Below are positions 6,669 to 56,617 of a stretch of DNA of 64,000 nt, in pieces. How positions within the stretch are numbered: position 1 is the first letter of the stretch; the number at the start of each line of letters is the position of its first letter. The position numbers and the translations under genes are program-made. Origin of the DNA: Aristolochia californica. Its lineage: Eukaryota > Streptophyta > Magnoliopsida > Piperales > Aristolochiaceae. The notes under the pieces were generated by a model. That model saw nothing but the letters and a program-made list of their open reading frames with translations. It was not told where the DNA came from and made no database searches. The stretch spans positions 7,275,931 to 7,339,930 of the forward strand of contig JARWKL010000010.1 of the NCBI GenBank assembly GCA_029961685.1. The letters run 5' to 3'.

Positions 6669-7040
6669 CTATGTACCAATCATTGTATTGACATCTTTAG
6701 ACTTGAAGACCTCCCTAGACGCCTCAACAATATCCTTCATTGCATCAATGAATCTGCTAGTGTCATCAGTGGACATTTTGGTTCTCTTTCTACAGCGAGT
6801 TGAAGGTGATGGGTTACCACTTCGAGGCTGCTCAAGTGCTGACTCATTCCCACTAAGGAATGGTGATGAAATGTCCCTAACTACATCGATATCCTCGAGC
6901 TCGTCCATTTATGACCCTTCTAGCTCACAAAGGAGATCATCACCCAGATTTATGCAAGTTTGACTTGTTGTCCCCATGGCTATTGAGTTTTCCACAACCA
7001 AAGACAATTTATTGTAAAGTGCACACCCTTCACGTCTATA
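6669..7040 (-). pseudogene. Harbinger ORF1 (Myb/SANT-type partner protein), C-terminal part
   Basis: The - strand reads REGCALYNKLSLVVENSIA, then an acidic and Ser-rich linker, then a C-terminal tail with FIDAMKDIVEASREVFKSKD. This is the usual layout of the plant Harbinger DNA-binding partner, in which an N-terminal Myb/SANT-like domain is followed by a charged C-terminus. The protein reads across the hAT insertion: to the right of it, just beyond 9355, the - strand gives EHNDVEK after a possible AG acceptor, and this joins in phase to YRREGC. The Myb/SANT domain itself was not identified. A stop lies just before the Met at 6908. Confidence 0.6.
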
Positions 7041-7048
7041 CTTCTCAG

Positions 7049-9347
7049 TAGAGGTGGCATCGAACTGAGCTGGTTTGTGAGTGGCTCGAGCTCAGCTAGG
7101 TTCTCGCTTGGCTTGATTCGATTTATCTGGATCTCGAAAGAAGGCTCATTTGAGTTAACGAGACAAGTTCGATCGAACCATGGTTCGGTTCGAAAGCTCA
7201 CCAGCTGGCTTATTAACTGGGCTTGGGAGTCATGACTGGGAGCCAGGAGTCGTCTTCGATTTATTCCTCCCCTCTTCTGTCTTCACAGATCCTAATCACC
7301 GCCGAGCCCCTCCCATCCAGAGTTGTGGCCACCTCCGTCGCCGTCGACAACTGCTCACCAGTCGCCTTCACCGCCACTTGGTTTGATTTCTTCCTCCCCT
7401 CGTTCGCTTTCGCCGCTGCTTCTATCGCCGTCGCCTCCGTCACAGTCATCAGCCCTGACAATAACTCACTCCCTCCCCCTGGCGCGCAAAAACATCTTAC
7501 AAAATGCAAGATCACAAGCACGTGAACAAAAAAACTATTTCTTGAACTCTGGCTGTCTCTTCCTCATGGCTCTTGAAGAGACTCAAATTGTTTGAGGTAC
7601 TCTCTTAAAGCTAACTCCACTCAACTTTTTCAGAAGAATTGTTGAATTTATGTAAAAGATAAAAATACTTCATTGACTTCATTAACTTATTATAATCAGA
7701 GTACATGAACCTCTATTTATAATAGAGGAAGGTAGTAGCGTCCAATTACAATAAAACTACTTGTGTCCCAATTAAACCCAAACTCTAACACTTAAAGATA
7801 AGTCCTAGCATAATTAAATAACTCAATATAGATAAAAGATACACATAACACAAACTAGAACTCTTCTAGGACGTGACCATAAGATAACAATACCTTTGTG
7901 AGTCCTTCTAGATCTTCCAAGTTATGTGATAAGGATACCAATTTGTCATAATCATGATGGGTCCTACTTCTTATGTGTTTGGGCCATCTTGTGGGCCTTC
8001 GTTAGTTATGTGGCCCATCTTATAATACTTTTAGATATGTGGGCCTTCCTTGGTCATGTGGGCTTGGGCCTATCTTCCAACACTCCCCCTCAAGTTGCGG
8101 GGTGAGAGAGCAACATGAACTCCCAGCTCGCTGCAAATGATGTATAAAATCTTTTTGTATAAAATGGCACATCTTCCAATATGCCTTCATCTTTCAACAC
8201 TCCCCCTCAATCTGTTGCGTCCTTCCATGAGGCCCTACTGGCATAATATAAATGAGAGTAAAAATCACTCCTAGCCGGTAAGACATTGCTCCATAGTCCT
8301 GTCCTAATTTTGGATGTAGGGTACACTCCACCTTCTGTAGGTAGTGTGTCTATCGGCATTGCTCTAAAGTGTCCACCACTGTGTCCCTCATCAAGATAAC
8401 GACTCTCAAGTGGTAGGAGTAATAAAAGCCATTACAGGTGGGTTTATTTATAATGGTGTTTCAATCTAGACACCGACACTCATGGTATCCCAACCATGAT
8501 ATTTTTGAGAATTAAATTTATCATGGTGTCCCAATCTAGGCACCAACTCTCATGGTGTCCCAACCATGATATTTTTTAGAGTAAAATAAATTATGGTATG
8601 AGAAAAGGTACTGAGGCCACCTCTTCTTCAATAATAATGTCTCATCCAAAGAGACATAGTAGCAACAACTGTAATGTAACACGACCATCTTCCAACATAT
8701 ATAACACGGACCAAATAATAAATTTTGTAAAAGAACCCATGAAATAATCCAATATAAAAATTTCTTCTTAGATGCACAAGCTTCATTTGTGCTCCCCCTC
8801 TCTTTAATATTTTGGTCACATAAACTTTATCCACAATATTTGGAATAAAATACCTCTTTCTTGTACTTCTTCTACATCTCCCCCTCAAGCTAGGAGGTAA
8901 TGGCAGTGATCCCAGCTTAAACCAAATATCATAAATGTAGTAATAAGCCAAAATAATGTAGATGTAGTAATAAGCCCTTAAAATAGGGAGAAGTGAGACA
9001 TTTTTCTGATATAGCAGCTCAAATAGTGAGGCAAAACAATAGGCTTAAACATAGGCAGGTAATGTCCAATTTTAAGTAGAAGTTATGCCCAATTTTATGT
9101 AAAATGTATGCATAATTTTATATACAATTTATTTGACTTGTATTTTATGCAAAGTTTTATATGTAGGTTGGAGCTTGAACCTGGCTTGAGCTCGAGTTTG
9201 AACTCGGTTAAAATTATTGGGCTCGAGCTAGATTAAAATTTTAGGCTTGAGGTTAGGCTCGGCTCGAGCTCGAGTTCGAAATATTTAAATCAAGCTCGAC
9301 TCGAACATAGGCAAGTTCGGTCTCGGCTCGGCTCTATTCCACCCCTA
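7049..9347. mobile_element. hAT-like non-autonomous element with 8-bp target duplication
   Basis: The left end reads TAGAGGTGGCATCGAACTGAG and the right end, in reverse complement, reads TAGGGGTGGAATAGAGCCGAG. Both ends are followed by GAGCTCGAGCT-rich subterminal sequence. Flanks are CTTCTCAG (7041-7048) and CTTCTCAA (9348-9355), an 8-bp duplication with one mismatch, as expected for hAT. No transposase was found. 7200-7600 is GC-rich and could be a captured exon, but I do not recognise it; 9050-9347 is AT-rich then Ser/Leu-poor repeat sequence with no gene. The element sits inside Harbinger ORF1 and was itself hit by LTR element A1. Confidence 0.75.
7640..9049 (-). mobile_element. Family A LTR element, copy A1, truncated
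   Basis: The complete 3' LTR is at 7640-8082 (443 bp, TGTTGG...CAACA on the - strand), followed leftward-to-rightward by the polypurine tract complement CTCCCCCTCAAG and about 970 bp of internal sequence matching A2, A3, A5 and A6. It stops abruptly at about 9049, before the internal 188-bp repeats, the PBS and the 5' LTR. There is no gag or pol, only a degraded copia pol C-terminus near the tract. It lies inside the hAT-like element. Confidence 0.8.
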
Positions 9348-9569
9348 CTTCTCAACATCATTATGCTCCTACAAGAAAATAACATCTTTTAGAAGTCTTG
9401 GAATAAAGTTTAGTATTGCGAAAAATATAAGAAATGTTTTGCAGTACAACATGATTTATTGACCTTAAATGTAGTCTTGCCATACAAAATGACTTGCAGT
9501 AACTCGTTGTGTGGTTGCATACCAGTTCTGGGTTTCAGTGGAGATCAAGATTTTGTTGTCCACAATGTC

Positions 9570-9836
9570 TTGCAGTTGGTTTTTAGTGCTTGCGCTCATG
9601 ATGGTTGAGTACATGATGCTTGCCACTTCTTCGAGTCCCTTGATGAATATGGACTGGCTCTAAGGATTGAACACTATGTTTACATGGTTGATGTTCTCAG
9701 TCGAGCAGGTCAATTACATGAGGCGCTTAAGTTTATTGAGACAATGCCAGTAGAGCCAATTGCCTCCATGTAAGGAGCTATACTTACTGGACGCAATAAT
9801 TACGGAACAGTGGAGCTTGCTGCACATAATGATCGG
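9570..9836 (+). pseudogene. PPR protein fragment (C-terminal PPR and E motifs)
   Basis: One + frame reads SACAHDG, a stop, then ESLDEYGLALRIEHYVYMVD, LSRAGQLHEALKFIETMP and, after another stop, GAILTGRNNYGTVELAA. This is the characteristic end of a PLS-class pentatricopeptide protein (organelle RNA binding), where the broken spot would normally be Trp in the M-W-G motif. It is a fragment of about 85 codons with at least two stops. It is in the same orientation as the three other gene fragments and the gypsy tail that follow. PPR genes are often intronless, so it says nothing on its own about a DNA or RNA origin. Confidence 0.8.
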
Positions 9837-9995
9837 TGTACCTTCACACTTCAGTGCCTGGTACTCGGGTGTTTTTCTAGAGTCAAAGTAGTTCACACTT
9901 CAGATAAGATACATGGCCAAGTCTATATTACTGATATTAACTGCATCTTACTACTCCTCTGGCTTTCCATCACTATTGTTCTCAAAAATATTTGA

Positions 9996-10310
9996 CACAT
10001 TGGAAATGCAGTAGGTCTTGCCATAATCACTGGGATGCTTGCAATAACTTGTATCGTGTCACTCATCATTTCTAGAGCCGTAGAAGCTATGAATTTTTTA
10101 GCTTGTGTGCTAAATCTTCATGAAAGTTTAGGGTTTTTCATCTTCTTTGCGGTTGTTCTCATGGTAGTTACGTGGACATGGCACCATGGAACCATAAAAA
10201 AGTATGAGTTTGATTTACATAACAGGGTTTGCATGGATTAGCAAACTGATCCAGGTCCAAGTCTTGGAGTTGCTCATGTCATAGGAATTGGATTTATATA
10301 CACATAATTA
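9996..10310 (+). pseudogene. HAK/KUP potassium transporter fragment
   Basis: The frame reads IGNAVGLAIITGMLAITCIV, then two hydrophobic stretches, then WHHGTIKKYEFDLHNRVCMD, a stop, and GPSLGVAHVIGIGFIYT. This corresponds to the last membrane helices and the start of the cytosolic tail of plant HAK/KUP/KT K+ transporters (family pattern WHYGT-KKYEFD and GPSLG-VRV-GIG-I-TEL). The fragment spans about 100 codons with in-frame stops. It ends near 10310 and is followed after a short unassigned stretch by the copine fragment. Confidence 0.82.
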
Positions 10311-10364
10311 GTCAGAGTCTTAACCAGTACTGTTGCGGCTGCTTGTGGATTTCACAAGGATATG

Positions 10365-10766
10365 CATCGTGATCCTAGGGCAGCAGTTTATGCAAAGAAA
10401 AGATATGGTACACAGGAAGAACTTGGGTGGATAGAAGTAAGTACGAATCAGTTGAATCCTGTTTGGATTTGAAAAATTGGAGTTGTGTCTCAATTTGAAA
10501 TTGCCCAACCACTGCTAGGTATTGTGTATGATGTTGCTACCCAGTTTCATGACATGCCTGTCAAGGCACTTAAGGTAGATGCGCAAGATTTTCTTGGTGA
10601 AGGTACTTGTGTAATGTCAGAGATAGTAACTAAACAAAGTAAGAGTTTAACCCTCCATCTTCAAGTGTGCAATTATGTGCATGATTGTGTCAAGTACATG
10701 GGAACATTTAAAATCCAAGCTGAAGAAACAGTTGCTACAAGGAAGGTTGTAGACATGAATGTGCAG
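10365..10766 (+). pseudogene. Copine (BONZAI-type) C2 domain fragment
   Basis: The frame reads DPRAAVYAKKRYGTQEELG, STNQLNPVWI, a stop, then VSQFEIAQPLLGIVYDVATQ, DFLGEGTCVMSEIVTKQSKS and GTFKIQAEETVATRKVVDM. These are successive parts of the first C2 domain and C2-C2 linker of plant copines, calcium-dependent membrane binding proteins such as BON1. About 134 codons run without an intron, although copine genes are intron-rich, which suggests origin from a spliced transcript. There is one stop after NPVWI. At about 10767 the same frame passes directly into DUF1771/SMR sequence. Confidence 0.83.
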
Positions 10767-11120
10767 CTTTTGACAGCAATGGAGAATCCTCAGAATGATG
10801 CACTGAGGATGATGAGGTCAGCAACCCAACACTCTCGAGATGCTAATAATGTTTATATAAGAGGTGATCATTTTTTTGCTTAGCAGCTTTCCCTAAAGGC
10901 TCGAGAGGAATTATTAGTTGCAGAGGAGTTGAATGGACAGGCAGCTACAAAAATTTTATATATTCAGAACCATAAACATGGCCAATGGCAACTAGATTTG
11001 CATGGCCAGCCTGCATCTGAAGCTATTTCTGCACTCAAAGACCCTCTTCACAGGATTGAAACCAACATGCCTTATATTCATTCTATACCAATGCTTTCTC
11101 CTACCTATCGAGATGGAGTG
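10767..11120 (+). pseudogene. DUF1771-SMR domain protein fragment
   Basis: The frame reads MENPQNDALRMMRSATQHSR, YIRGDHFFA, a stop (TAG where Gln is expected), QLSLKAREELLVAEELNGQA, then WQLDLHGQPASEAISALKD. The first part is the helical DUF1771 region and the second is the start of a Smr (small MutS-related) nuclease-like domain with its conserved LDLHG motif. Only the N-terminal third of Smr is present before the sequence changes to unassigned and then gypsy-derived protein. It continues the copine frame without a gap. Confidence 0.82.
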
Positions 11121-11543
11121 AGTATGTCTTCTTCATCAAAATCTGTTGTGTGTCCAGACATGAAGGAAGAGCTTCAAGAAGTAAAGAGACAGCAGCAATG
11201 GCTCACTCAAACCAAACCATCCTCTGAAAACTTGCAACGTGAAGACCAGCACCTTTCTCTAGCTTCTGTATTGTGTGCCCGACTTATTAATGCCCTGTTG
11301 GAGATTCTAGTCCAATGGACTGACACAGAACCAGCAGTAGCTACAGATAAACACTTTAAGGGTACAACACCACCTCCACCTCCGCTCTTACCTTCAGTGA
11401 TAGAGGGGTGCGTTATTCTCTCTCTAGCCACAAGTTTGCAAGCCCGACAAACTCATAATAGGTGGGAGATCCTCATCTGGTGGGCTGACATAGATAAAGT
11501 TGCTGCCACATGGGAAGATGTGGAGACATTCTGCCTAGCCTAG
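10929..11543 (+). CDS. Chimeric ORF: SMR fragment fused to gypsy polyprotein tail
   Basis: A 204-codon ORF with no stop. Residues 1-47 are SMR-like (LDLHGQ at 22-27). Residues about 55-110 are Ser/Gln/Lys-rich with no family assigned. Residues 121-140 (LLEILVQWTDTEPAVAT) and 176-204 (NRWEILIWWADIDKVAATWE) are two copies of the short gypsy C-terminal motif that ends the gypsy polyprotein at 50815-50950, separated by a Pro run. A gypsy-style ELEDKLFL, a stop, GG and the LTR follow. The junction between host-like and retroelement protein is therefore inside one open frame. Whether it is expressed is unknown. Confidence 0.7.
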   Translation: MNGQAATKILYIQNHKHGQWQLDLHGQPASEAISALKDPLHRIETNMPYIHSIPMLSPTYRDGVSMSSSSKSVVCPDMKEELQEVKRQQQWLTQTKPSSENLQREDQHLSLASVLCARLINALLEILVQWTDTEPAVATDKHFKGTTPPPPPLLPSVIEGCVILSLATSLQARQTHNRWEILIWWADIDKVAATWEDVETFCLA

Positions 11544-11590
11544 CCTACCTTCGAGCTTGAGGACAAGCTCTTTCTCTAGGGAGGAAGTGA

Positions 11591-11989
11591 TGTTATGGAC
11601 TCAATAGCTGGCCGAATCATTCAGAGGCACCATGGCTGAGTCATTGAGTTATTCAGTTAATTTTTTTCTTTCAATTTCCTTCTACTTCATTTTTATTTCA
11701 ATTGATGAGTTAGTATGCCATAGGGGCATTATTTTCTTCTCTTGAACTCTTGTTGGCATCAACCCTACTTAAGGGGGAGAAGAAATGAGAAAGGACAAGT
11801 CTTGATTTTAAACAAGGGATTTGGAGTTATCCGCCATGAGCTCTGGGGTGTGCGTTCTCCTCAACGAACCTAAGGATGTGCATTCTCCCCAATGAACCTA
11901 GGGTTTCAAGTTCCCCTTCGAGCTTGGTTTTCTCCTCCTCCTCCTCTTTCTTCCCTACGAATCGTTGTGTGAGATCCGGGATCGTAACA
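11591..11989 (+). mobile_element. Gypsy 3' LTR (family D-like)
   Basis: 399 bp, starting TGTTATGGACTCAATAGCTG and ending GATCCGGGATCGTAACA. It is preceded by the gypsy 3' signature GAGCTTGAGGACAAGCTC and a purine tract. Its last bases nearly match the D LTR ends at 32103-32119 and, on the - strand, at 63715-63731. No 5' LTR was found upstream, so the element is truncated or rearranged. It directly abuts copia H coding sequence at 11990, which it interrupts or truncates. Confidence 0.8.
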
Positions 11990-13485
11990 TAGGATGCATT
12001 AGCTGATCCAAAATGGAGAAAGCCGATGAACGAAGAGATGGAGGCTCTACAAAAAAAATGCCACTTGGAAACTTGTTCCACAACCTAAAGTAGTGAAGAT
12101 AGTTGGATGTCGATGGGTATTCACGATGAAACTCAAACCGGATGGAAGCATTGAAAGATATAAAGCTTGACTAGTTGCGAAGGGATATACCCAAAGGTAT
12201 GGGGTAAACTACCAGGATACTTTTGCACCAATTGCTAAGATCAATACAAATCACATTCTTATATATATAGTAGCAAATCGAGATTGGCCTCTACAACAAT
12301 TTGATGCTAAAAATGTCTTTCTCAATGGAGACTTAGAAGAAGAAGTCTTCATGGAGCTACCACCCAGAGTTAAAAGTAGTTCTTTGTGTCAAGGTGAAGT
12401 CTGTAAATTGAAGAAGTCAATGTACAGGCTGAAACAGTCACCTAGAGCGTGGTTTGGGAGATTCTCGGCTACAATGGAGTTTGGCTATAAGCAAAGTAAC
12501 TCAGATCATACTTTGTTTATAAAACACAAAGAAGGTAAAGTAATAGATTTAATTGTGTATGTTCATGATATGGTCTTGACAAGAGATGACCCAGGTAAAA
12601 TGCAAGCTTTAAAGGAGTATTTAGTCACGGAATTCAAAATGAAGGATCTCGGACAGGTTAAATATTTTCTTGGAATTGAGGTAGCAAGATTGAAACATGG
12701 AGTCTCCCTTTCATAGCAAAAATATGTGTTAGATCTTCTAGCCGAAACTGGAATACTTGATTGTAAACCAGTAGAGATCCCTATAGAAATGAATCATAAG
12801 CTTGGAATTCTCCTAGATCAAACCCCAGTAGACAAGGGGCGTTATCAGTGGTTGGTTAGAAGATTAATCTACCTATCACACACAAGGCTAGATGTAGCAT
12901 ATGCGGTGAGCGTTGTGAGTCAATTCATACATGCACCAAGCGAAGAACATATGGAAACGGTCTATCGGATCTTAAGATACTTAAAAAGTGCTACAGGAAA
13001 AATGTTTGTTATTCGCAAAAAAAAAGGGTATCTCTAACATTGAAGGATACACAGATTCTGATTGGGTAGGTGATCAGACAACCAGAAGATCCATGTCTGG
13101 TTACTTTACTTTTCTGGAAGGTAATTTTGTCACGTGGAAAAGCAAAAAATAGAAATTAGTATCAATATCAAGTGTTGAAGCTGAATTTTGAGGCATAGAA
13201 CATGGTGTATGTGAATTTTTATGGATAAGAAATATACTGAGGGACTTAGGGATTGAATATGCTAAACCTATGAATCTCCACTACAACCATCGAAATTGCA
13301 AGAAATCCTATTCAACATGACACTAAACATGTTGAAGTTGATCGTCATTTCATTAAGGAAACCCTCGATGCAAAGATTATAAAATATCCTTTTATTCCAT
13401 TTGAGAGTCAATTGGCTGATATGCTCATGAAGGGAGTATTAGGGAAGGTGTTTCATGGTATAATTGACAAGTTGGTCATGATCGA
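11990..13485 (+). pseudogene. Copia element H: reverse transcriptase and RNase H, broken
   Basis: The sequence opens inside reverse transcriptase (PMNEEMEALQ, GCRWVFTMKLKPDGSIERYK) and runs through LQQFDAKNVFLNGDLEEEV and LKKSMYRLKQSPRAW to the active-site region, where YVDD has become YVHD. RNase H follows (TDSDWVGDQTTRRSMSGY, VEAEF, KHVEVDRHFIKE). There are several stops (after ERYKA, before QKYVLDL, after TWKSKK). The last codons are cut by A2 at 13485 and resume at 16208, ending at a stop before a GAGGGGGAG tract. Gag, protease, integrase and the 5' LTR are absent, replaced by the gypsy tail. Confidence 0.88.
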
Positions 13486-16202
13486 TGTTGAATTTATGGA
13501 AAATAAAAATACTTCATTGACTTCATTAACTTCTTATAATCAGAATACAGGAACCTCTATTTATAATAGAGGAAGGTAGTAGAGTCCAATTACAATAAAA
13601 CTACCTTTGTCCCAATTACACACAAACTCTAACACTTAAAGATAAGTCCTAGCATAATTAAATATCTCAATATAGATAAAAGACAAACATAACTCAAACT
13701 AGAACTCTTCTAGGATGTGACCATAAGATAAAGATGCCTTTGTGCGTCCTTCTTGATCTTCCAACTTATGTAATAAAGATGCCAACTCGTGGTAATCATG
13801 GTGGGTCCTACTTCTTGTGTGCTTTGGTCCATCTTGTGGGCCTTTCTTGGTGGCGTGACCCATCTTATAATAATCTTAGATATGTGGGTCTTCCCTGGTC
13901 GTGTGGGCTCTGACCTATCTTCCAGCACTCCCCCTCAAGCTGGGGGTGAGAGAACAACATGAACTCCTAGCTTGCTGCAAATGATGTATAGAATCTTTTT
14001 GTATAAAATGGCACATCTTCCAATATGCCTTCACCTTCCAACACTCCCCCTCATGCTATTCTGTCATTCCATGAGGCCATGCTGGCATAATATAAGTGAG
14101 AGTAAAAATTACTCCTAGCCAGTAAGACATTGCTCCATACTCTTCTTTAGGTAGTGTCTCTATCGGCATTTCTCTGAAGTGTCCACCATCGTGCCCCTCT
14201 ACAGGACTACGTCTCTCAAGTGGTAGGAGTAATAAAAGCCATTACGGGGGGTTAGTGGGTTTATTTATAATGGTGTCCCAATCCGGACACCGACTCTCAT
14301 GGTATCCCAACTGTGATATTTTTAGAGTTAAATTTATCATGGTGTCCCAATCTGGGCACCGAATCTCATGGTGTCCCAACCATGATATTTTTTAGAGTAA
14401 AATAAATTATGGTATGAGAAAGGGTACTGAGGCCACCTCTTCTTCAATAATAATGTCTCATCCAGAGAGACATAATAACAGTAGCTGTAATGTAACACAA
14501 CCATCTTCTAATACATATAACACAAACCAAAATAATAAACCATGTAGAAGGACCCATGAAATAATCATGATCCAATATAAATATTTTTTCTTAGATGCAT
14601 AAGTTTCATCTTTTGTGCTGCCCCTTTCTTGAATATTTTGGTCACATAAACTTATCCACAACATATGGAATAAAATACCTGTTTCTCGTACTTCTTCTAC
14701 TTCTCCCCCTCAATCTGGGATGTAATGACAACGATCCCAGCTTGAACCAAATATCATAGATGTAACAATAAGCCCAAATAAAAAAATGTAGTAATAATCC
14801 CTTAAACCATGGAGAAGTGAGATATTTTCCTGATATAGCAACTCAAACAGTGACGCAAAATAATCGGCTTAAATTCGGATTTTTCAGTACAACAGAATAC
14901 CAACAAGACCTTTGATTCTTCCAACGTGAATATATCTTTAAATATAGATCAGATTGTTATGAAATTTTATCCTTCTGAAACTAGAGTTTAATAAATTTCA
15001 TCCAAGTATAACTTAACTTCATAAAATATAATTATCAGATGATAAATAATCTGATAGATTTCAGTCCTTTCATTTGGTTGAACTAAGTACTGTTTCTTCT
15101 TTTTTTTCTGCATGACCATTGAATCTCAATATCTCCTTATAAAAAACTCATACCAAGAATTAATTGAATAGGTAAGAAAATAGACTTACATATATTTATT
15201 TTGATGTATAATTCTCCATATAAAGTCTCTTTCTTGATAGCATAAAATACCTCAAAATTTGAAGCTTTTCTGGTCAAACCTCTTTTGTAATCTGACATTT
15301 GCTGCTTCAAATATCGATTTCTCTTTGTAGACAACTCAAATAAAAAATTGGTTGTATAGGTAAAAGAATAGACTTACAGATATTTGTTTTGATATATATT
15401 TCTCCATATAAAGTCTAGTTCTTGAGAGCATAAAATACCTCAAAAGCTTAAGCTTTCTGTTGCAGCTCGAACCTCTTTTGTAATCTAACCTTCGATCATT
15501 AAAATATTGATATCTCTCTGAATATAACTCCGATTGGAACAAATCATTTTAATTTGGAAAGTAGAATCAAATATATTTCAAGAAATATATAATTTTCAAT
15601 ATGAAAATCATATTATAGAGATGAGAGCGCAAATAAAACTACTAGTGTAGGGACTGAAAAAAAAATAACTATGAACCTAGACTTAGGGTTAAGGGTTTAG
15701 TGAAAAGGATTTCATTATCTCTGTGGGTTGACCAAGTCAACTCACAGAACCTGCTTTGATACCATGTTGAATTTATAGAAAAGAAAAATACTTCATTGAA
15801 TTCATTAACTTCTTATCATCAGAGTACATGAACCTCTATTTATAATAGAGGAAGGTAATAGAGTCCAATTACAATAAAACTACCTTTGTCCCAATTAAAC
15901 TCAAACTCTAACAATTAAAGATAAGTCCTAGTATAATTAAATAACTCAATATAGATAAAAGAAAAACATAACTCAAACTGGAACTCTTCTAGGACGTGAC
16001 CATAAGATAAAGATGCCTTTGTGAGTCCTTGATCTTCCAACTTACACGATAAGGATGCCAACTCATGGTAATCATGGTGGGTCCTACTTCTTGATTGCTT
16101 GGGCCCATCTTGTGGGCTTTCCTTGGTCATGTGGCCCATTTTATAATAATCTTAGATATGTGGGACTTCCTTGGTTGCGTGGGCTTGGGCCTACTTCCAA
16201 CC
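13486..16202 (-). mobile_element. Family A LTR element, copy A2, complete
   Basis: The 3' LTR is 13486-13927 and the 5' LTR is 15765-16202. The target duplication is ATCGA at 13481-13485 and 16203-16207, so it is one insertion into copia H. The PBS complement (CTTTGATACCA, initiator-Met type) lies just left of 15765, and the polypurine complement CTCCCCCTCAAGC lies just right of 13927. The 1.8-kb interior has no gag or pol frame. It holds a degraded copia pol C-terminus next to the tract, 62-bp TCATGGTGTCCCAA repeats near 14270-14400 and two to three copies of a roughly 188-bp repeat at 15120-15680. It is a non-autonomous element. Confidence 0.88.
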
Positions 16203-17354: not shown

Positions 17355-20300
17355 TGTTAAAACAGGACTCCATGATGTATAATTAAAGTAGAAGAGGATT
17401 GAGGGATGAGAAGAAGAAGGAGAGTTATAGAGAGAAGGTTTAGGAGGAGAAGAAGAAGAGTGATGAATTTGGAGAAGGAGAAAGAAGCTAGAGAATTAGG
17501 ATTGTGGAATTTTCTAACCCCCCCCCCCCCCCCCCCCCCCCCTAAAGCTTTATATTGAATTTATGGAAAAGAAAAACACTTCATTGACCTCATTAACTTA
17601 TTATAATTAGAGTACATGAACATCTATTTATAATAGAGGAAGGTAGTAGAGTCCAATTAAAATAAAACTATATTTGTCCCAATTACACCCAAACTCTAAC
17701 ATTTAAAGATAAGTCATGGCATAATTAAATAACTCAATAAAGATAAAAGACAAACATAACTCAAACTAGAACTCTTCTAGGACGTGACCATAAGATAAAG
17801 ATGTCTTTGTGAGTCCTTCTTGATCTTCCAACTTATGTGATAAGGATGCCAGATCGTGGTAATCATGGTGGGTCCTACTTCTTGTGTGCTTGGGTCCATC
17901 TTGTGGACCTTCCTAGATTGTGTGGCCCATCTTATAATACTCTTAGATATGTGGGTCTTCCTTGGTCTGTGGGCTTGGGCCTATATTCCAATACTCCCCC
18001 TCATGCTGGGGGTGAGAGAACAACATGAACTCCCAGCTTGCTGCAAATGATATATAAAATCTTTTTCTGTAAAATGGTACATCTTCCAATATGCCTTCAT
18101 CTTCCAACACTCCCCCTCACACTGTTGCATCCTTCCATGAGGCCTTGTTGGCATAATATAAGTGAGAGTAAAAATCACTCCTAGCCAGTATGACATTGCT
18201 CCATACTCCAGTCCTAATGCTAGATGTAGGGTACACTCCGTCTTCTATAGGTAGTGTGTCTATCGGTATTGCTCTGAAGTGTCCACCACCGTGTCCCTCC
18301 ACAGGACAACGACTCTTAAGTGGCAGGAGTAATAAAAGCCATTATAGGGGGTAGTGGGTTTATTTATAATGGTGTTCCAATCCGGACACTGACTCTCATG
18401 GTATCCCAACCATGATATCCGGGCACCGACTCTCATGGTGTTCTAACTTTGATATTTTTTAGAGTCAAATAAATTATGGTATGAGAAAAGGTATTGAGGC
18501 CACCTATTTTTTAATAATAATGTCTCATCCAAAGAGATATAATAATAATAGTTGTAATGTAACATGACCATCTTCCAATACATATAACATAAACCAAAAT
18601 AATAAACCTTGCAGAAGGGCCTATGAAATAATCATAATCCGATATAAATATTTTTTCTTAGATGCATAAGTTCCATATTTTGTGCTCCCCCTTTCTTAAA
18701 TATTTTGGCCACATAAAACTTATCCACAACATATGGAATAATATTCCTCTTCCTTGTACTTCTTCTACTGCTCCCCCTCAAGCTAGGAGGTAATGACAGT
18801 GATCCCAACTTGAACCAAATATCATAGATGTAGCAATAAGCCCAAATAATAGAGATGTATAAATAAGCATTCAAACCATGGAGAATTGAGATATTTTTCT
18901 GATATAGCAACTCAAATAGTGACACAAAACAAAGGGCATAAATTCGGATTTTTCAATACAATAGAATACCAACATGACCATTGATTCTTCCAATGCGAAT
19001 ATATATATTTAAATATAAATCAGATTGACATGAAAGTTTATCCTTCTGAAAATAGACTTATATAAATTTCATCCAAGTGTAACTTTACTTCATAAAATAT
19101 AATTATTAGAAGATAAATAATCTGATAGAGTTCGGTCTTTGTCATCTGGCCGAACTAAGCATTGTTTCTCCTTTTTTCCTGTATGACCATTGACTGTTCC
19201 AAGATCAATATCTCCTTATAAAAAAATCATACCGAGAATTGGTTGAATAGGTAAGAAAATAGATTTACATATATTTATTTTGATATATATTTCTACATAT
19301 AAAGTCTCTTTATTGATAGCATAAATACCTCAGAAATTGAAGATTTTTGTTGCTGCTCGAACCTCTTTTACAATCTGACATTTGCTGCTTCAAATATCGA
19401 TTTCTCTTTGTAGATAATTCAAATAAAAAATTGGTTGAATAGGTAAAAGAATAGACTTATAGATATTTCTTTTGATATATATTTCTCCATATAAAGTCTA
19501 TTTCTTGAGAGCATAAAATACCTTAGAATCAGAAGCTTTTTGGTGCTTCTCGAACCTCTATTTCAATCTGACCTTCAATCATTCAAACATCGATATCTCT
19601 TTGTAGATAACTCCGATTGGAAAAAAAATTTCATTGGAAATTAGACTCAAATATATTTTCTTTAATATATATTTTAAAATATTAAAATCTCATTATAGAT
19701 GTGAAAAACTCAAAGAAAAATACAAGTTTAGGGACTGAAAAAAAATAACTACAAACCTAGATTTAGGGTTTAGGGTTTAGTGAAAGGGATCTCATTATCT
19801 CTGTGAGTTGACCAAGTCAACTCATAGAACCTTATCTGATCCCATGTTGAATTTATGGAAAATAAAAATGTTTCATTGACCTCATTAACTTATTATAATC
19901 AGAGTACACATGACCCTCTATTTATAATAAAGAAAGCTAGTAGAGTCCAATTACAATAAAACTACCTTTGTCCCATTTACACTCAAACTCTAACACTTAC
20001 AGATAAGTCCTAGCATAATTAAATAACTCAATATGGATAAAAGATAAACATAACTCAAACTAGAACTCTTCTAGGACGTGACCATAAGATAAAAATGCCT
20101 TTGTGAGTCCTTGATCTTCCAACTTATGTGATAAGGATGCCAGCTCATGGTAATCATGGTGGGTCCTACTTCTTGAGTGATTGGGCCCATCTTGTGGGCC
20201 TTCCATGGTTGTCTGGTCTTGGGCCTATCTTCCAACACTTTATTTATAGATGCTAAAAGCACCAATATTACAAATATACCCTTCACCCTAGTAAGAGTAA

Positions 20301-33235: not shown

Positions 33236-33569
33236 AAAGAAGGTAATTCCTCTTCTTTTTCCTTCCAAGATCTCCTCAAAGACTCCCCAATGGATGCAGC
33301 AAACCCCCAAGAGAGTTCACACCAAGAACCCTAGAATAGAGAGCCTAGAAGGAACCTAAATTACCCTAGTTTATGCTAATTCCGAACTTGCTTTATTTCT
33401 CCATCCTTACCCCTTAAATAGGGTAATTAACATCAACATAGGTTAGGGTTATAAAACCCAATTCTACCCCTACCTTTAAGTCTTATTACAAATCAATAAA
33501 ATTCAAAATTAAAAGCAACATAAATAATAAAAGTAAAGTAGATGACTCAGTGTTATTGAGTCAATAACA
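33236..33569 (-). mobile_element. Gypsy E LTR piece, inverted
   Basis: On the - strand it starts TGTTATTGACTCAATAACAC and matches the first 330 or so bases of the E LTR at 30752-31085, then ends at A/T homopolymer runs near 33210-33236. The sequence to its right, again on the - strand, is the gypsy polyprotein end and polypurine tract. It is therefore a 3' LTR lying in the opposite sense to the E LTR 2.5 kb to the left. Confidence 0.8.
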
Positions 33570-33623
33570 TCTGCCCCCCCTTGGAGATCGAGCTTGTCCT
33601 CAAGCTCAGAAGCTGGGTAGACC

Positions 33624-45340: not shown

Positions 45341-46102
45341 TATCTCATTAGCTGGATTAAGTTTTATACGTCATGATATGTTTTAACCAGCTGAAGGATA
45401 AGTTCTCGGAAGTTTTGGTACCTGTTTTTGATATCTTGAAAGATAATGCATTCATTAATTCTGGTAGGAAAATAGAACAGGACAGTAACTTCTGAATTTA
45501 GAACTCTTGTCTTGTTAGCTCTCCATCTGTTCTGGTGAACTCCTATGATGTTGTCTTCATCTCTTCCGTTGAGGGGGGGAAGCTCTGTTTGGTCGAGAAG
45601 AGCAAAACGGAAGCTCGGTTCGGCCACGGGAGGAAGACGAAGGACTATTGATAAATTTTTCCTAAGTTAGGAAAAATTAAACCCGCTAGTTCAACGCTTA
45701 AGTCAAGCCATCTTGGACCGGGGTGAGTTCACCCAGTGACGGGTCAGCACTTGCACTTGTTCTTCTGAGTTAACTCAGCTCAACTCGGACTGAGTCAACC
45801 CGGCTCGGGTCAAATTGACTCGGCCCCCAAAAAATGCCTTGGTATACGTGTCTGGGTCCCGAGTTCTATGCTGAATCCTCCCACAACTCGGCTATATTGG
45901 TTTATTATTTGACTCAGTTCTCGATCTCCAACTGAATTATTATCTTGGATTTTTACTCAGATTTGGTGCAACTTCCTTCTTTACTGATGGACTCGTTGTG
46001 GACTATTTCATGTATCCTTATTATTCTTAAGGAAATCTATTATTAATCGGTTATCCACTCCTATAAAATTTCACATATGGTGCATGTTATTTTGGCATTG
46101 AC

Positions 46103-49100
46103 TGTTATGGACTCCATAGCATCACGAGTTATCAACAGGCATAGGAATTAAATTATGTCAATTTCCTTTTAATGTAATTCCATTTGGTTTGGTTTGATTT
46201 AGATGTAATATGGCATGAACCAATTGACCCATGGGTCTATTTTGTATTTTCGTCCTCAACCCTATTTATGGGGACGTCAAGGTGAAGGAAAGTAAGTATT
46301 GAGAAAATTAGAATTAAATAGGTCAGATTCTCCCTCAGAGGGCTAGGTCGGATTCTCCCTCTGAGGTCCAAGTCGAGCTTCCTTGAAAGCTCAATCATTC
46401 CATTCCAAATTCCACCATTCCACGTTCCAGAAACAAGAATCCTCTTCCAACGTCAAGATTCAATATGGAGGGAAGAGAGGAAAGAAGGGTGACTCAATCC
46501 ATGGCTCTGGAAGAACCTAACATCTTGGTGTCAGATAGGTCCACCCTTGGGGATTCCTCTTACCCTGAGGATTTGCGGTAATTAATTGAGGACAATCATC
46601 AGAGGACAGACGTTCAAGCTCAATCCCTGGAAGAAGTGCGTCAGACCACATCTGATCCATGAGGCAATCAAATCCATGGACGCAACAATCCAAACCCTGC
46701 TCCGGTGACAAGACGACAGTGGTCTTCGAGTGCCACCATCGGCAGTCTACTGTCCATTGACCGACCACCATGACTTCCAGCCACTACCACCTCCTCCACC
46801 ACCAATGCACCATAACAATCCCCATTTGGGGCCTGCCGCATAGGGGCCAAATACGGTTCTCGAGTATTTCAAAATCGATTTTCCTACAGATGATGGGTCT
46901 AAGGACCCCTTGATTTGGTTAACCAAGTGTGACCAATTATTTTATCATAAAAAAACACAGACAGATGAGAAGGTTTATTTGGTCACATACCATATGCTCA
47001 ATGAAGTGCTCCTATGGTACCACCAATTTCGAAATGACCAATTGGTTAAGGATTGGGCAATCTTTAGACTATCATGCATGATGAGGTTTGGTCCTCCAGC
47101 TAGTAGCAATCCATTGGGAGAATTAATCAATTATAAACAGAATGGATCACTAGAGGTGTACCAAAAGACCTTCCAGGAATGTTTGGCCCGCGCTAGTGAG
47201 TTTGTCAGTCACTCCCAGTATGTTCACATCTTTGCTACTGGTTTGACAGAAGCTCTATGACTGGAAGTTGAATTACATGATCCTAAAGATTTGGACCACG
47301 CTATGAATTTAACCAAGTTAATTGAGCACAAGCAATGAGTTCTGAAGGATTCACTGGTCAGAAAACCAGCTTCACTAGGAAGGCACACTACCACTGCGCC
47401 AACATCATATTCTGGGCCTCCACATTCTAGAGCCAGTGCAGCACCGCGACCAGAAAGTTCTAACTTTATGCCACCAGCTCCTTACTTCAAAAAGCTGAAT
47501 AGACAGGAGATGGAACAGAGAAAGGCCAAGGGCCTTTGTTTTAACTGTGATGACCAGTATGTCTAGGGTCATATATGCAAACGATTATTCAGTGTGTGTC
47601 TGTGGGAGGATTGTGAGGACATACTACCAGAGGAAGAGATTGTGGAGACAGACCAAGAGGGTCCAGAGATTTCACTTCATGTCATGACTGGCCTGCACAG
47701 CTCTAACACCATGCAAGTTAAAGCCCAGTTACATCATCTACAATTACTTGCTTTAGTTGACTCTGGCAGCAAGCATAATTTCATCAGTCAGCCAGTGGCC
47801 GAACAACTTGGGTTAGTCATCCAGCAGCAAACATGCCTTTCTGTCTCAGTAGCCAATGGGGCTAAAGTTACCAGTGTGGGCATATCTCCAGCCACCCACT
47901 TTGATATTGAGGGACACTCCTTTATTGCAGATTTTTCCTGGTGATTCCACTGTCTGAATTTGACTTGGTCCTTGAAGTTAAATGGCTACAACTATTGGGG
48001 CCTATTTTATGGGATTTTTAGGCTCATGACCTTCACAGAGGACCACCATCAGATCACATTGCATGGCACCCATGCACCAGTGCCCTGCACACTTCAGACT
48101 GTTCGGGTCCATAGCACCAAAAATTGTAAGTTATCTTGATTACTTACAAACTTTGAGGATATATTTCATGTTTTATTTCATGAACCTACTGCTCTTGCGC
48201 CTATTCGGCACTGTGATCACCACATCCAATTGAAAATGGGCACTGAACCTGTAGTGGTGCGGCCTTATCGTTACCCCCACTTATAGAAGGATGAAATTGA
48301 AAGGCAATGCCAAATTATGCTCGCCCAGGGAATTATTCAGCCCAGCAAGTCTCCTTTCTCCTCCCCGGTATTACTGGTCCGCAAGCATGATAAGTCGTGG
48401 AGGTTTTGTGTGGATTACTGGAAACTCAACGCTTACACCATTAAAGACAAATTTCCCATCCCAGTGGTGGACGAGTTGCTAGATGAGTTACACGGTGCTT
48501 CTATATTTACCAAGCTGGATTTGAAGTTTAGCTATCATCAAATCCACGTTCATCCATCAGATGTGGAGAAAACAGCGTTTCGCACGCACCATGGTCATTT
48601 CGAGTTCCTCGTGATGCCATTTGGTCTATCAAATGCACCTTCCACATTCCAGGCCCTCATGAATGAGGTATTTTCCTCTCTATTGAGGAAATATGTTCTG
48701 ATATTTTTATATGACATTTTGGTGTATAGCAACAATTGGGAAGAGCATCTTCAACACCTTCACCAGGTATTTACTCTTCGCCGCTCGCATCATTTGGTTT
48801 TAAATCAGTCCAAATGTTCTATGGGTACCTCAGAAGTGGCATACTTGGGCCACGTTATTTCAGCAGTAGGGGTGAAGGTTGACTAGAGTAAGATTCAGGC
48901 CGTCACAAATTGGCCTCCTCCCACCTCCATTACAGCGTTAAGGGGATTTTTGGGCCTTGCTGAGTATTACAAGAAATTTATCTGCAACTATGGCCAGATT
49001 GCAACACCGCTCAATAACCTACTCAAGAAAAATGCCTTTACCTGGTCCAAGACAGTTGCTCATTCCTTTAAGCAGTTGAAAGAGGCATTATCATCCGCAC

Positions 49101-51381
49101 CAATTTTCCTGTTACCGGACTTTGATGAGTCCTTTTTGGTGGCATGTGATGCTTTGGGGGGCGGTATTGGTGTAATGTTACACCCACAAGGACACCCAAT
49201 CGCTTATTTTAGCCGCCAACTTGGCCAACACCGTACAAGTTAGCAGCTTATGAGAGGGAACTGATCGGTTAAGCTAAAGCAATACAGCATTGTCGGCCTT
49301 ATCTCTGGGGGCGCCCATTTCTGATTCGCACCGATCATTGCAGCCTCAAGTATCTTCTTGAGTAGCGCCTCACTACCTCACCTCAGCAGTACTGGTTAAG
49401 TAAACTTATGGGGTTTGACTTTACCATGGAGTATAAACCTGGGAGTTTGAATGTGGGGGCTGATGCTTTATCTCGTTGGGACATTCTAGAGCCGCAATTA
49501 CATGCCATCAGTTAGCCCAGAGCTCTCTTGTTGGATTCTATTCGGGAGGAAACACAACAGTATCCAAAAATTATTGCCTTATATCATGACATTCAGTAGG
49601 GGAAATTGGAGAAACATTGGACGGTTCAGGATCGTCTTGTCCTCTTCAAAAACCGGATTTTTCTACACCACATGTCACCACTTATTCACAACTTTCTAGC
49701 CTTGTTCCATGATAGTACACATGAGGGCTGACAAAAAAACATATTTCTAGATCAGTTGGGATTTTTATTGGAGGGGTATGAAGCATAGTATAGCCGATTA
49801 TGTGGCGGCTTGTCAGATTTGTCAACGGAATAAAGCTGAATCATTAAGTCCAGCAGGTTTGCTCCAACCACTTCAGCTACCGTCATAGGTCTGGTCAGAT
49901 ATTTCCATGGACTTCATAGATAGCCTTCCCTTGTCGTCCGGCAAATTCGTTATATTTGTAGTGGTTGCTCGTTTCTCAAAGTATGGCCATTTCCTCCCTC
50001 TGGCGCATCCTTACACTGCCGCTCATGTAGCTCAGCTCTTTATGGATAATATTGTCCCGTTACATGGGATGCCTATCTCCATTACCAGTGACAGAGATGC
50101 CATCTTTACCAGTATATTCTGGAAAGAACTATTCAAGATGAAAGGCACAATGTTAGCATTCTCTTCCGCCTACCATCTACAGACTGATGGTCAGACCGAG
50201 GTCATCAACCGGACTATTGAGATGTATTTTCGTTGTTTCGTGAGGGACTCACCTAAACGGTGGGTTAAATGGCTCGCCTCAGCTGAATTCTGTTACAACA
50301 CCTCCTACCATTGCGCACTTGCAACTACCCCATTCAAGGTAGTATATGGCAGAGACCTGCCTCGACTTTTATCGTATGAACCTGGTGCCTCCAAGGTAGC
50401 CACTTTGGACCAAGCGATAGCAGAAAGAGACACCATGCTCACTGAGGTGCGCACTCATCTCCAGGAGGCCCAGAATACTATGAAATTTTATTATGACAAG
50501 AAGCACTGAGAAGTCTTGTTTTCTCTAGGAGATTATGTATGGTTGTGTCTCCAACATTACAGGCAGTTGTCACTGACAGCCTCCAAATACCACATGCTCT
50601 CTCCGAAGTATTATGGTCCCTTTCAGGTGATGGACCACATTGGCACTGTTGTCTACCGCTTGCAGCTTCCGCCAGAGGCAATGATTCACAATGTGTTTCA
50701 CGTCTCCCAATTGAATGCCTTCCAAGGCGACTCTCCCTTGCTGCACACCCCTCTGACCCCAGTACATGAGGGACGTGTCCTTTCTACTCCAGCACAAGTG
50801 TCATAGGCTGATCGCATTCAGGGTAATTGGGAGATACTAGTGCAATGGGCTAATGCTGACCCCAGTGACACTACATGGGACCCCTTACCAACTTTCAGAG
50901 CCCTCTACCCCTATTTCGAGCTTGAGGACAAGCTCTTTCTCCAGGAGGGGGGGTGATGTTATGGACTCCATAGCATCACAAGTTATCAACAGGCATAGGA
51001 ATTAAATTATGTCAATTTCCTTTTAATTTAATTCCATTTGGTTTGGTTTGGTTTGGTTTAGATGTAATATGGCATGAACCAATTGACCCATGGGTCTATT
51101 TTGTATTCTCGTCCTCAACCCTATTTATGGGGACATCAAGGTGAAGGAAAGTAAGTATTGAGAAAATTAGAATTAAATAGGTCAGATTCTCCCTCAGTGG
51201 TCTAGTTCGGTTTCTCCCTCTGAGGTCCAGGTCGAGCTTACTTCAAAGCTCAATCATTCCATTCTGAATTCCACCATTCCACGTTCCAGAAATAAGAATC
51301 ATCTTCCTGCGTCAAGATTCAATATGGAGGGAAGAGAGGAAAGAAGGGTGACTCGATCCATGGCTCGGGAAGAACCTAACA
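46103..51381 (+). mobile_element. Ty3/gypsy element, complete structure, inside C
   Basis: The LTRs are 46103-46522 (420 bp) and 50957-51381 (425 bp), TGTTATGGACTCCATAGC...CCTAACA, closely matching each other. The flanks TTGAC and TTGGC are a 5-bp duplication with one change. A PBS-like TTGGTGTCAGATAGG follows the 5' LTR, and AGGAGGGGGGG precedes the 3' LTR. C interior sequence is continuous across it (CATGTTATTTTGG to GCCCATTTTCG). Confidence 0.88.
46850..50955 (+). pseudogene. Gypsy gag-pol, broken
   Basis: Domains in order: gag (LIWLTKCDQLFYHKKTQTDE), a worn CCHC knuckle (CFNCDDQYV, stop, GHICK), protease (LVDSGSKHNFIS), reverse transcriptase (FCVDYWKLNAYTIKDKFPIP; TKLDLKFSYHQI), RNase H, integrase (DFIDSLP, SDRDAIFTS, TDGQTEVINRTIE) and a C-terminal PKYYGPF-type module ending ELEDKLFLQEGG. 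The RT catalytic pair normally written FDD reads LYD here, so one catalytic Asp is lost. There are at least ten stops or frame changes. The large open stretches (48317-48886, 49907-50509) show it is relatively young. Confidence 0.9.
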
Positions 51382-53895: not shown

Positions 53896-56612
53896 TGCTG
53901 GAAGATAGGACCAAACCCACACAACCAAGGAATGCCCACATATCTAAGAGTATTATAAGTTGGGTCACACGACCAAGGAAGGCCCACAAGACTACCACGA
54001 GCTGGCATCCTTATCACATAAGTTGGAAGATCAAGAAGGACTCACGAAGGCATCTATATCTTATGGTCACGTCCTATAAGAGTTCTAGTTTGAGTTATGT
54101 TTGTCTTTTATCTATATTGAGTTATTTAATTATGCTAGGACTTATCTTTAAGTGTTAGAGTTTGGGTCTAATTGGGACAAAGGTAGTTTTATTGTGATTG
54201 GACTCTACTACCTTCCTCTATTATAAATAGAGGTTCATGTACTCGAATTATAATAGGTCAATGAAGTATTTCTCTTTTCAACAAATTCAACATGGTATCA
54301 AAGCAGGCTATGTGAGTTGACTTGGTTAACCCACAGAGATAATGAGATCTTTTTCTCTAAACCCTAAACCCATAGTCTAGGTTTGTAGTTATTTTTTTCA
54401 GTCCCTACACATGTAATTTTCTTTGTATTTTTCACCTCTTTACTAAAATTTTCATATTGAAAATTATATATTGAAGGAAAGACATTTAAGACCAATTTCC
54501 AATGAAAAATTATTTTTTCAATCGGAGTTATCTACAAAGAGAAATCGATATTTGAATGTACGAAGGTCAAATTATGAAAGAGGTTCTAGAAACAGCAGAA
54601 AACTTCAATTTTTAGCTATTTTATGCTATAAAGAATGAGAATTTATATATATATATATATATATATATAATGAAATATACGTAAGTCTATCCTCTAACAT
54701 ATTCAACCAATTTTCAATTGGATTAATCGACAAAGATAAATCGATATTTGAATCAGCAACGGTCAGATTAAAAAAAATGTTCGAGTAGCAACAGAAAGCT
54801 TCAACTTCTGAGGTATTTTATGCTATCAAGAACGAGGCTTCATATGGAGAATTATATATAAAAATAAATAAATGTAAGTATATTTTCTTACCTATTCAAC
54901 CAAATCTCGATCTGAGTTTTTATTAAGGAGATATTGATTTTGGAAGAGTCAATGGTCTTGTTGGAAAAAAGGGGAAACAATGCTTAGTTCGGCCAGATGA
55001 CAAAGACCAAAATTTATCAGATTACAATAATAATATTTTATGAATTGAAGTTATACTTAGATGAAATTTATTTAAGTCTATTTTTAGAAGGAGAAAATTT
55101 CATGTTAGTCTAATCTATATTTAAAGATATATTCACATTGGAAGAATCAAAGGTCATGCTGGTATTTTGTTGTATTGAAAAATCCGAATTTATGCCCTTT
55201 GTTTTGTGTCACTGTTTGAGTTGCTATATCAAGAAAATATCTCACTTCTCCCTGGTTTGAGGGATTATTTATACATTTCTATTATTTGGGCTTATTTTAG
55301 ATCTTTGTTATTTGGGCTTATTGCTACATCTATGATATTTGGTTCAAGCTGGGATCACTGCCATTACCTCCCAACTTGAGAGGGAGAAGTACAAGAAGTA
55401 AAAGAAAGAGGTATTTTATTCCATATGTTGTCGATAAGTTTATGTGACCAAAATATTCAAGAAAGGAGGAGTACAAAAGATGAAGCTTCTGCATCTAAGA
55501 AAAACTATATATATCAGATTATGATTATTTCATGGGTCTGTCTACAAGGTTTATTATTTTGGTTCATGTTATATATGTTGGAAGATGGTCGTGTTACATT
55601 ATAGCTACTGCTATTACGTCTCTTTGGATGAGACATTATTATTGAAGAACAGGTGGCCTCAATACCTTTTCTCATACCAAAATTTATTTGACTCTAAAAA
55701 ATATCACGGTTGGGACACCATGAGAGTCGGTGCCTGAATTGGGACACCATGATAAATTTAACTTTCAAAATATCATGGTTGGGATACCATGAGAGTCGGT
55801 GTCCAAATTGGGACACCCTTATAAATAAACCCACTACCCCCCCTATAATGGATTTTATTACTCCTACCACTTGAGAGTCATTGTCCTGTGGAGGGACACG
55901 GTGGTGGACACTTCAGAGCAATGTCGATAGACACACTACCAACAGAGGATGGAGTGTGCCCTATATCCAGCATTAGGACTGGAGTATGGAGCAATGTCTT
56001 ACCGGCTAGGAGTGACTTTTAGTCTCACCTATATTATGCCAGTAGGGCCTCATGGAATGACACAACAATGGAAGGGGGAGTGTTGGAAGATGAAGGCATA
56101 TTGGAATATGTGCCATTTTATACAAAAATATTCTATACATTATTTGCAGCAAGCTGGGAGTTTATGTTGTTCTCGCACCTCCAGCTTGAGGGGGAGTGTT
56201 GGAAGATAGGCCCAAGCCCACACGACCAAGTAAGGTCCGCATATCTAAGAGTATTATAAGATGGGTCACATGACCAAGGAAGGCCCACAAACACATAAGA
56301 AGTAGGACCCACCATGATTACCACAAGCAGGCATCCTTATCACATAAGTTAGATGATCAATGATTCACGAGGGCATCTTTATCTTATGGTCACATCCAAG
56401 AAGAGTTCTAGTTTGAATTATGTTTGTCTTTTATCTATATTGAGTTATTTAATTATGCTAGGACTTATCTTTAAGTTTTAGAGTTTGGGTGTAATTGGGA
56501 CAAAGGTAGTTTTATTGTAATTCGACTCTAAAACCTTCCTCTATTATAAATTGAGGTTCATGTACTCTAATTATAATAGGTCAATGAAGTATTTCTCTTT
56601 TCCACATATTCA
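53896..56612 (+). mobile_element. Family A LTR element, copy A6, complete, + strand
   Basis: The 5' LTR is 53896-54292 and the 3' LTR 56197-56612, with PBS TGGTATCAAAGC at 54293-54304. The target duplication is ATAAT at 53891-53895 and 56613-56617. The interior shows the 188-bp repeats (about 54480-54960), an (AT)n run near 54647-54669, and the two GGGGGAGTGTTGGAAGAT strings (56074 and 56191). Just before the second string, CSKLGVYVVLAPPA is a remnant of a copia pol C-terminus. It is the only A copy in + sense. It interrupts the BRCA1/BARD1-like pseudogene. Confidence 0.87.
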
Positions 56613-56617
56613 ATAAT

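Follow-up and report, generated by a model that had tools for sequence, protein, structure and literature searches.

The locus described here raises the question of how pieces of four host genes could come to lie head to tail, and in one reading frame, against the end of a retrotransposon. It is situated in Aristolochia californica, in a stretch of 64 kb (G000:C2:7275931-7339930; hereafter, the window, to which positions without a contig refer), and all genome searches covered the assembly of 659.6 Mb in 521 contigs. At positions 9519-11989, on the + strand, a PPR (pentatricopeptide repeat) piece, a KUP potassium transporter piece, a copine (BONZAI 3) piece and a DUF1771-SMR piece are joined to a Ty3/gypsy pol tail and one long terminal repeat (LTR). 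Four host pieces followed by a gypsy end on the + strand had been noticed in a preliminary description of this DNA; their identities now come from Pfam matches and from the Aristolochia proteins P0002 (KUP), P0005 (copine) and P0004 (SMR). The window copy is a 5′-truncated member of a multicopy, non-autonomous LTR family, and we consider it very probable that this family is of the Ty3/gypsy type, each copy a mosaic of host pieces captured from spliced mRNA by template switching.

Segments and reading frame of the window copy

All segments of the chimera lie on the + strand. The PPR-derived segment (9519-9850) starts where the homology of the window copy with copies L011 and L015 begins, position 9519 being the left edge. 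Its PF01535 match (9609-9770; E=0.001, 19.6 bits) falls under the Pfam cut-off of 25, and it carries an internal deletion at 9582 relative to L015, in which extra PPR-like coding sequence occurs at the equivalent position (judged by eye). The KUP6-like segment (9851-10316) corresponds to parent residues ~261-432 and has lost one parental intron; it is identified as KUP by PF02705 (E=9.8e-9 within 9774-9992) and by P0002, the residues 261-432 of which match 9852-10316 at 69%. A short bridge follows (10317-10367), part of a module that is longer in L013, L014 and L045. Its CGFHKD stretch is common to L013/L014 and L045, where different sequence then follows, and the module yields no family in Pfam at E<=1 and none in NCBIfam.

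In the copine C2 segment (10368-10753), parent exons 2-5 are fused and three introns are gone. Residues 49-185 of the BONZAI 3-like P0005 match 10347-10757 at 69% without a gap, and 10369-10753 aligns with the spliced parent exons over 385 gapless bases at 88.8%. The DUF1771-SMR segment (10768-11171) combines parent residues ~130-137 with residues 203-331, again lacking one intron: the match of P0004, which is annotated with DUF1771 in the database, starts at residue 203 (position 10785), and the SMR part is 87.96% identical to parent exon 2 across 357 gapless bases, although the DUF1771 profile itself scores weakly in the window (E=0.09 and 0.06, Pfam). We rejected a splice variant as the reason why SMR residues 138-202 are missing, since GT..AG does not occur at the ends of that stretch.

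Downstream of SMR, an in-frame stretch (11172-11252), similar to one that follows SMR in L008 and L015, leads to the Ty3/gypsy pol C-terminal tail (11253-11577); no Pfam family reaches its gathering score over 11091-11270. The tail is partly duplicated internally (11253-11329 versus 11418-11494, 64%), and the identical kind of tail follows an integrase-like translation in the related elements L018 and L020 (recognised by eye). A protein search with the SMR-pol-tail piece returned no match at E<=10. As previously described, a purine tract (~11578-11590), with an equivalent ahead of the 3′ LTR in complete copies, precedes the 399-bp 3′ LTR (11591-11989; TGTTATGG...GATCGTAACA), of which 11592-11989 served as query in most searches. 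The bridge and the partial duplication of the pol tail are additional to what had been described before.

Translation of 9300-11640 shows that the PPR, KUP, bridge, copine and DUF1771-SMR parts, the extra stretch and the pol tail read in order in one frame. The preliminary description had placed only copine and SMR in a common frame, which is true but too narrow, since all five segments share it. Over 9570-11255, this frame contains seven stops in 562 codons, against 39 and 44 in 561 codons of the other two; with the mean taken from these two frames (41.5), the Poisson probability of seven stops or fewer is ~5e-11. The stop-free open reading frame that joins SMR to the pol tail exists as well, albeit with 219 codons (10884-11540) instead of the 204 first reported. 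KUP, copine and SMR also stand in a single frame in L001 and L005. The shared frame at the joins is striking, and its conservation suggests that a long open frame helps an element to spread; in-frame joins are mostly seen, but this is partly because open frames were the ones looked at.

Parental introns, fragment edges and the route of capture

The KUP, copine, SMR and TMEM87 pieces could be traced to their parent genes (TMEM87 being a further donor, represented in L048 and L068), and those copies that had been fetched, rather than all copies genome-wide, were compared with these genes. Eight introns in these four donors are missing from the compared copies that span them. In the parent copine gene (C111:4694535-4707467), residues 55, 104, 121 and 140 are followed by introns of 5521, 142, 1152 and 908 bp, respectively, and residue 201 by a further one. 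Those of 142, 1152 and 908 bp lie inside the captured stretch and are absent from the copies, which bears out the earlier remark that the copine piece runs without an intron despite an intron-rich parent. Spliced copine exons 2-5 continue gapless through the inner junctions in L005, the window copy and L006, and over a shorter, equally gapless range in L010, L012 and L013. The alignment gaps in other copies (1-3 bases in L002, L003, L004 and L014; 12 in L016 and L017; 27 in L007) are far shorter than the parental introns.

In SMR, a 435-bp parental intron within the captured stretch is missing in all five copies compared. A 94-bp KUP intron is missing in the seven copies that span it, the other four of the 11 compared beginning beyond the intron, and three TMEM87 introns (~220, 109 and 417 bp) are missing in L048. 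Thus, at the fragment sites, three copine, one SMR, one KUP and three TMEM87 introns are absent, and this loss implies passage through spliced RNA.

The fragment edges were likewise compared with the exon boundaries of the parents. Five of the six edges of the KUP, copine and SMR pieces fall in mid-exon: KUP at parent residues ~258-261 and 432, copine at its 3′ end (~186), and SMR at ~127-131 and 331. The sixth, at the 5′ end of copine, is no more than ~2 nt away from the boundary between exons 1 and 2. Different partners are found at or near this edge, namely, the bridge module, TMEM87 in L048 and L068 and, roughly three bases further in, PPR in L047.

The join between TMEM87 and copine falls in a microhomology of 6-8 nt and is mid-exon in TMEM87: the parent TMEM87 gene reads TGGCAGAGTG at the join, the copine edge of the element reads ATGCAGAGTGATCC, and the fused copy L068 reads TGGCAGAGTGATCC. 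Over the switch region, the gene has GATGGCAGAGTGCTTGG, L068 AATGGCAGAGTGATCC, L048 GATGGCGAAGTGATCC and the bridge-copine copies ATATGCAGAGTGATCC. This microhomology, at one join, favours switching; no clear microhomology is present at the other joins printed. Moreover, TMEM87 was probably joined onto element RNA that already bore copine, because L048 and L068 carry CCTAGAGCAG as do L012, L016 and L017, unlike the gene, which has CCTATGGCAG.

Capture at the level of DNA is an improbable source of these mosaics. Intron-containing genomic pieces would have entered through breaks in introns, and their introns would have been lost later, via reverse-transcribed spliced element RNA. The beginning of the copine piece at the exon 1/2 boundary, after the 5.5-kb intron, fits such a route, but the other five edges are mid-exon, no intron occurs in any compared copy that spans a junction, and the TMEM87-copine join combines a mid-exon position in TMEM87 with microhomology. 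Furthermore, LTRs bound the complete copies, and 5-bp duplications flank three of these (see below); no direct search for Helitron or MULE ends was made.

Slightly less probable still is read-through transduction, in which elements beside processed, intron-free retrocopies would have co-transcribed them. Intron-free donors do occur in this genome, since a processed BONZAI 3 copy covering residues 1-507 is present at C68:719930-721466 (L034-L036 and L038), separate from the chimeras and 97.7% like the gene over 384 bases. We rejected this copy as a donor because it is no closer to the chimeras than the gene (L005 is 89.8% identical to the copy and 90.2% to the gene); most chimeras side with it, and not with the gene, at three sites, and with the gene at most other sites. 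Read-through would, in addition, need an adjacent retrocopy for each of many donors, and the short homology at the TMEM87-copine join is what switching typically leaves.

Capture from mature mRNA by template switching is, therefore, the best supported route, in line with the RNA-level capture put forward in the preliminary description. The absent introns, the mid-exon edges, the LTR ends and the duplications found at three of five tested LTR pairs all support it; we infer the switching itself from the intron loss, the edges and the one clear microhomology.

Copies, LTR ends and further donors

With 9570-11989 as DNA query, we obtained 56 matches in the 659.6 Mb, a number that includes the window itself, many matches to the pol tail or LTR only and several places that were listed two or three times. 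The best other copies match over 2.4 kb at 87%, and the chimera is thus not a chance assembly. Copies with the same fragment order and this LTR, which the preliminary description had suggested looking for, were found: the order KUP-copine-SMR is common, and blocks come and go among the copies that share it. A search with the copine protein listed at least 81 match rows, 63 of which (most of these places not inspected singly) are confined to the captured residues 46-188; the remaining 18 comprise eight of the parent gene, six of the processed copy on C68 and four of other copine genes.

Flanking DNA was examined for eight copies (E14, E16, E17, L045, L046, L047, L048 and L068). LTR sequence is present at both ends in six of them: E14, E16, E17, L047 (pair identity 82.8%), L068 (83.2%) and L046, the 5′ LTR of which is partial, being cut by the edge of the fetched stretch. 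The LTR pairs end in TG...CA, the first bases of the E16 LTR having decayed. Perfect 5-bp target duplications flank three of the five pairs tested: TTTGC in E17, GATTG in E14 and AAATC in L047, the last sitting within sequence that resembles the copia LTR of the window. E14, E16 and E17 have a TGGTATCAGAGC-like primer site after the 5′ LTR, which presumably pairs with tRNA-iMet, and a purine tract ahead of the 3′ LTR. LTR divergence (Kimura two-parameter) amounts to 0.104 in E17, 0.063 in E16, 0.118 in E14 and 0.203 in L047, corresponding to rough ages of 4.5-14.5 million years at an assumed rate of 7e-9, or 10.5-33.8 million years at 3e-9, per site and year.

In E14 and E16, an ATG after the primer site opens a short coding stretch that is gag-like by eye. 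Among the 5′ pieces searched against Pfam, those of E14 and E17 matched no family and the two of E16 none but PPR, weakly. Neither reverse transcriptase nor integrase was seen by eye in the translations of E14 and E16, and Pfam matched neither in 10 stop-free pieces taken from E14, E16, E17 and L068. The related elements L018 and L020 have the same tail and LTR plus the integrase-like translation mentioned above. Related gypsy copies on C329 and C500 show identical match ranges and scores (e.g., L018/L019 and L020/L021), as if large segments had been duplicated between the two contigs.

The donors belong to at least nine families: PPR, KUP, copine, SMR, PFP (pyrophosphate-fructose-6-phosphate phosphotransferase), beta-galactosidase, TMEM87, H+-pyrophosphatase and UPF0004. 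L014 carries PFP pieces (TIGR02477, 1.1e-43 and 5.1e-28; both partial and under the whole-protein cut-off), L012 a beta-galactosidase domain (PF17834, 3.1e-19) and L010 a PPR stretch of 227 codons (PF13041, 3.5e-24). In L048, a single frame of 463 codons encodes UPF0004 (9.7e-10), a TMEM87-type GOST domain (8.6e-45) and then BONZAI (phmmer 2.7e-9), with beta-galactosidase (2.6e-11) and H+-pyrophosphatase (2.5e-25) further down. We credit this frame with three families only, because its PPR match is weak (E=0.008 with phmmer against PDB; absent from Pfam at 0.1). A frame of 550 codons between the two LTRs of L068 combines a GOST end (1.5e-6), beta-galactosidase (1e-14), PPR (1.4e-10) and a copine match; an open frame of 403 codons was also seen. 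A CAMTA-like ankyrin piece in L008, suggested by a weak Pfam match (E=0.002), was left out of the donor count.

L007 encodes a database protein, P0001 (BONZAI 3-like), at 100% over 189 residues. P0001 consists of a KUP end, copine and a DUF1771 start and, by this composition, is identified as a fragment of a retrotransposon chimera. L002 and L003 (C13:28863598 and C13:28925933) lie in inverted orientation and are 99% identical over 5.4 kb; this identity extends into the flanks, which would fit a segmental duplication better than two insertions. The opening 165 residues of the L048 frame (its PPR-like start and UPF0004 part) have many matches, similar to one another, at ~8.5-12.1 Mb of C511, a crowding on one contig that suggests local amplification.

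In the window, a pair of copia-family LTRs at 7640-14873 surrounds the chimera together with a copia reverse transcriptase remnant. The left LTR (7640-9051, + strand; right end set by eye) belongs to a separate element and matches 13486-14498 at 86%; the right one occupies 13486-14873 (+ strand), and the remnant (~12000-13485) was named by eye from its translation. Inspection by eye of the frames listed across 7000-14000 showed no copia gag, protease or integrase. Further LTRs of the same copia family occur at ~17552-18942 and 55189-56613. At 50748-51132, 46094-46302 and 33554-33617, the window holds further gypsy pol tails or LTR starts that are relatives of those in the chimera; nine frames taken from other copies matched no host piece near them. 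On the minus strand, 62820-62945 weakly matches the start of the L048 frame (43% over 42 residues) and is possibly PPR-like.

Coding constraint, mechanism and relation to known systems

Nonsynonymous/synonymous ratios for copine, from six pairs among the parent, the window copy, L005 and L006 (L004 was left out for its frameshift), range between 1.05 and 1.84. Compared with the parent, KUP copies give 1.22 and 1.45, the pair L002 and L003 giving 0.58 on very few changes, and SMR copies range over 0.29-0.58 in comparison with their parent and over 0.45-0.69 among themselves (small samples). Copine and KUP show no sign of constraint; that two of the three genes have ratios around 1 or higher speaks against a protein function under constraint. 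The least probable reading, and a very unlikely one, takes the chimeric frames for host or domesticated genes next to which LTR pieces happen to lie; although one copy stands in databases as the BONZAI 3-like P0001, open frames reach 463, 403 and 550 codons and the SMR ratios are low (0.29-0.69), the copine and KUP ratios, the stops or frameshifts in many copies and the enclosure of the frames by LTR pairs all speak against it.

Several observations weigh against capture from spliced mRNA into an LTR element. A weak point is the copine 5′ edge, so close to an exon boundary. The window copy has no 5′ LTR (none was found by BLAST against the 64-kb window), and 9052-9518 is not accounted for; L048 has a 3′ LTR with no 5′ LTR in 2.5 kb further upstream, and L045 shows only part of a 5′ LTR. 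Target duplications are lacking at two of the five LTR pairs (E16 and L068). With regard to the frame, the PPR and copine pieces of L010 are now in different frames, an out-of-frame join, and frameshifts occur in many copies.

Under capture by template switching, spliced host mRNAs would probably have been co-packaged with element RNA, and reverse transcriptase would have jumped between templates at short shared sequences, by which sense-strand mRNA stretches would come to be inserted between the start of the element and the pol tail. As LTRs, primer site and polypurine tract are present, a gypsy polymerase acting in trans could mobilise the chimeras. They would then have been amplified, lost parts by deletion and taken up more mRNA pieces.

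The pieces of the maize element Bs1 are reported to lie in one hybrid frame and to lack introns. According to a 2026 review (PMC13317346), Bs1 is an LTR element with segments of three host genes, yielding a chimeric gene; the excerpted text names no other plant LTR element that holds several host genes, and it treats template switching between elements separately from Bs1. Likewise, several host-gene pieces stand in one LTR element here, without parental introns; unlike Bs1 with its three genes, one copy unites four host pieces and a bridge, donor families number at least nine, and copies differ in composition. The principle is, hence, known from maize Bs1, and what is new is the number of donors, the copy number, the reshuffling and the multicopy spread.

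Full-length LTR retrotransposons with host pieces have also been surveyed in other grasses. For maize, the extract of the survey counts 425 gene-carrying elements, and with the criteria applied there no element combined pieces of two or more standard nuclear genes (PMC2774510); for rice and sorghum, with 672 and 1343 captured genes, the corresponding extract mentions no mosaic (PMC3726574). To the extent that these extracts represent the surveys, it is the mosaics that set the Aristolochia family apart. Chimeras in Veju, BARE-2 and complex Triticeae insertions are ascribed, in the portions available, to abnormal template switching (PMC13317346, PMC1950507); according to these, such hybrids unite one element with another or with unknown sequence, whereas here the partners are host mRNAs.

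Pack-MULEs and Helitrons are DNA transposons, and the pieces that they capture usually keep their introns. The family described here differs from them by its LTR ends and by the lack of introns in the stretches tested. Host pieces in Pack-MULEs and gene-capturing Helitrons occur, in some instances, in chimeric transcripts (PMC13317346). Among the matches listed in our literature search, no title reports such a family in Aristolochia, nor an LTR family with this many donors, and a word search of the main text of the A. fimbriata genome paper finds neither "captured" nor "retrogene" (PMC8445822).

At least one database protein, the BONZAI 3-like P0001, is a retrotransposon chimera. With at least nine donor families and four parents located, the family opens gene capture to study as a series of events in one genome, in which edges, microhomologies, the order of acquisition and the retention of frame are all measurable. 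We see the chances as evenly balanced that one lineage acts as a standing exon-shuffling engine, the RNA of which recombines repeatedly with spliced host mRNAs at short homologies and with in-frame joins, its hybrids spreading to scores of sites. If the in-frame joining is real, an open frame would be selected at the level of the RNA or of the element even without protein constraint. If such an engine exists, these elements would evolve by the exchange of host-derived modules, and not by point mutation alone.

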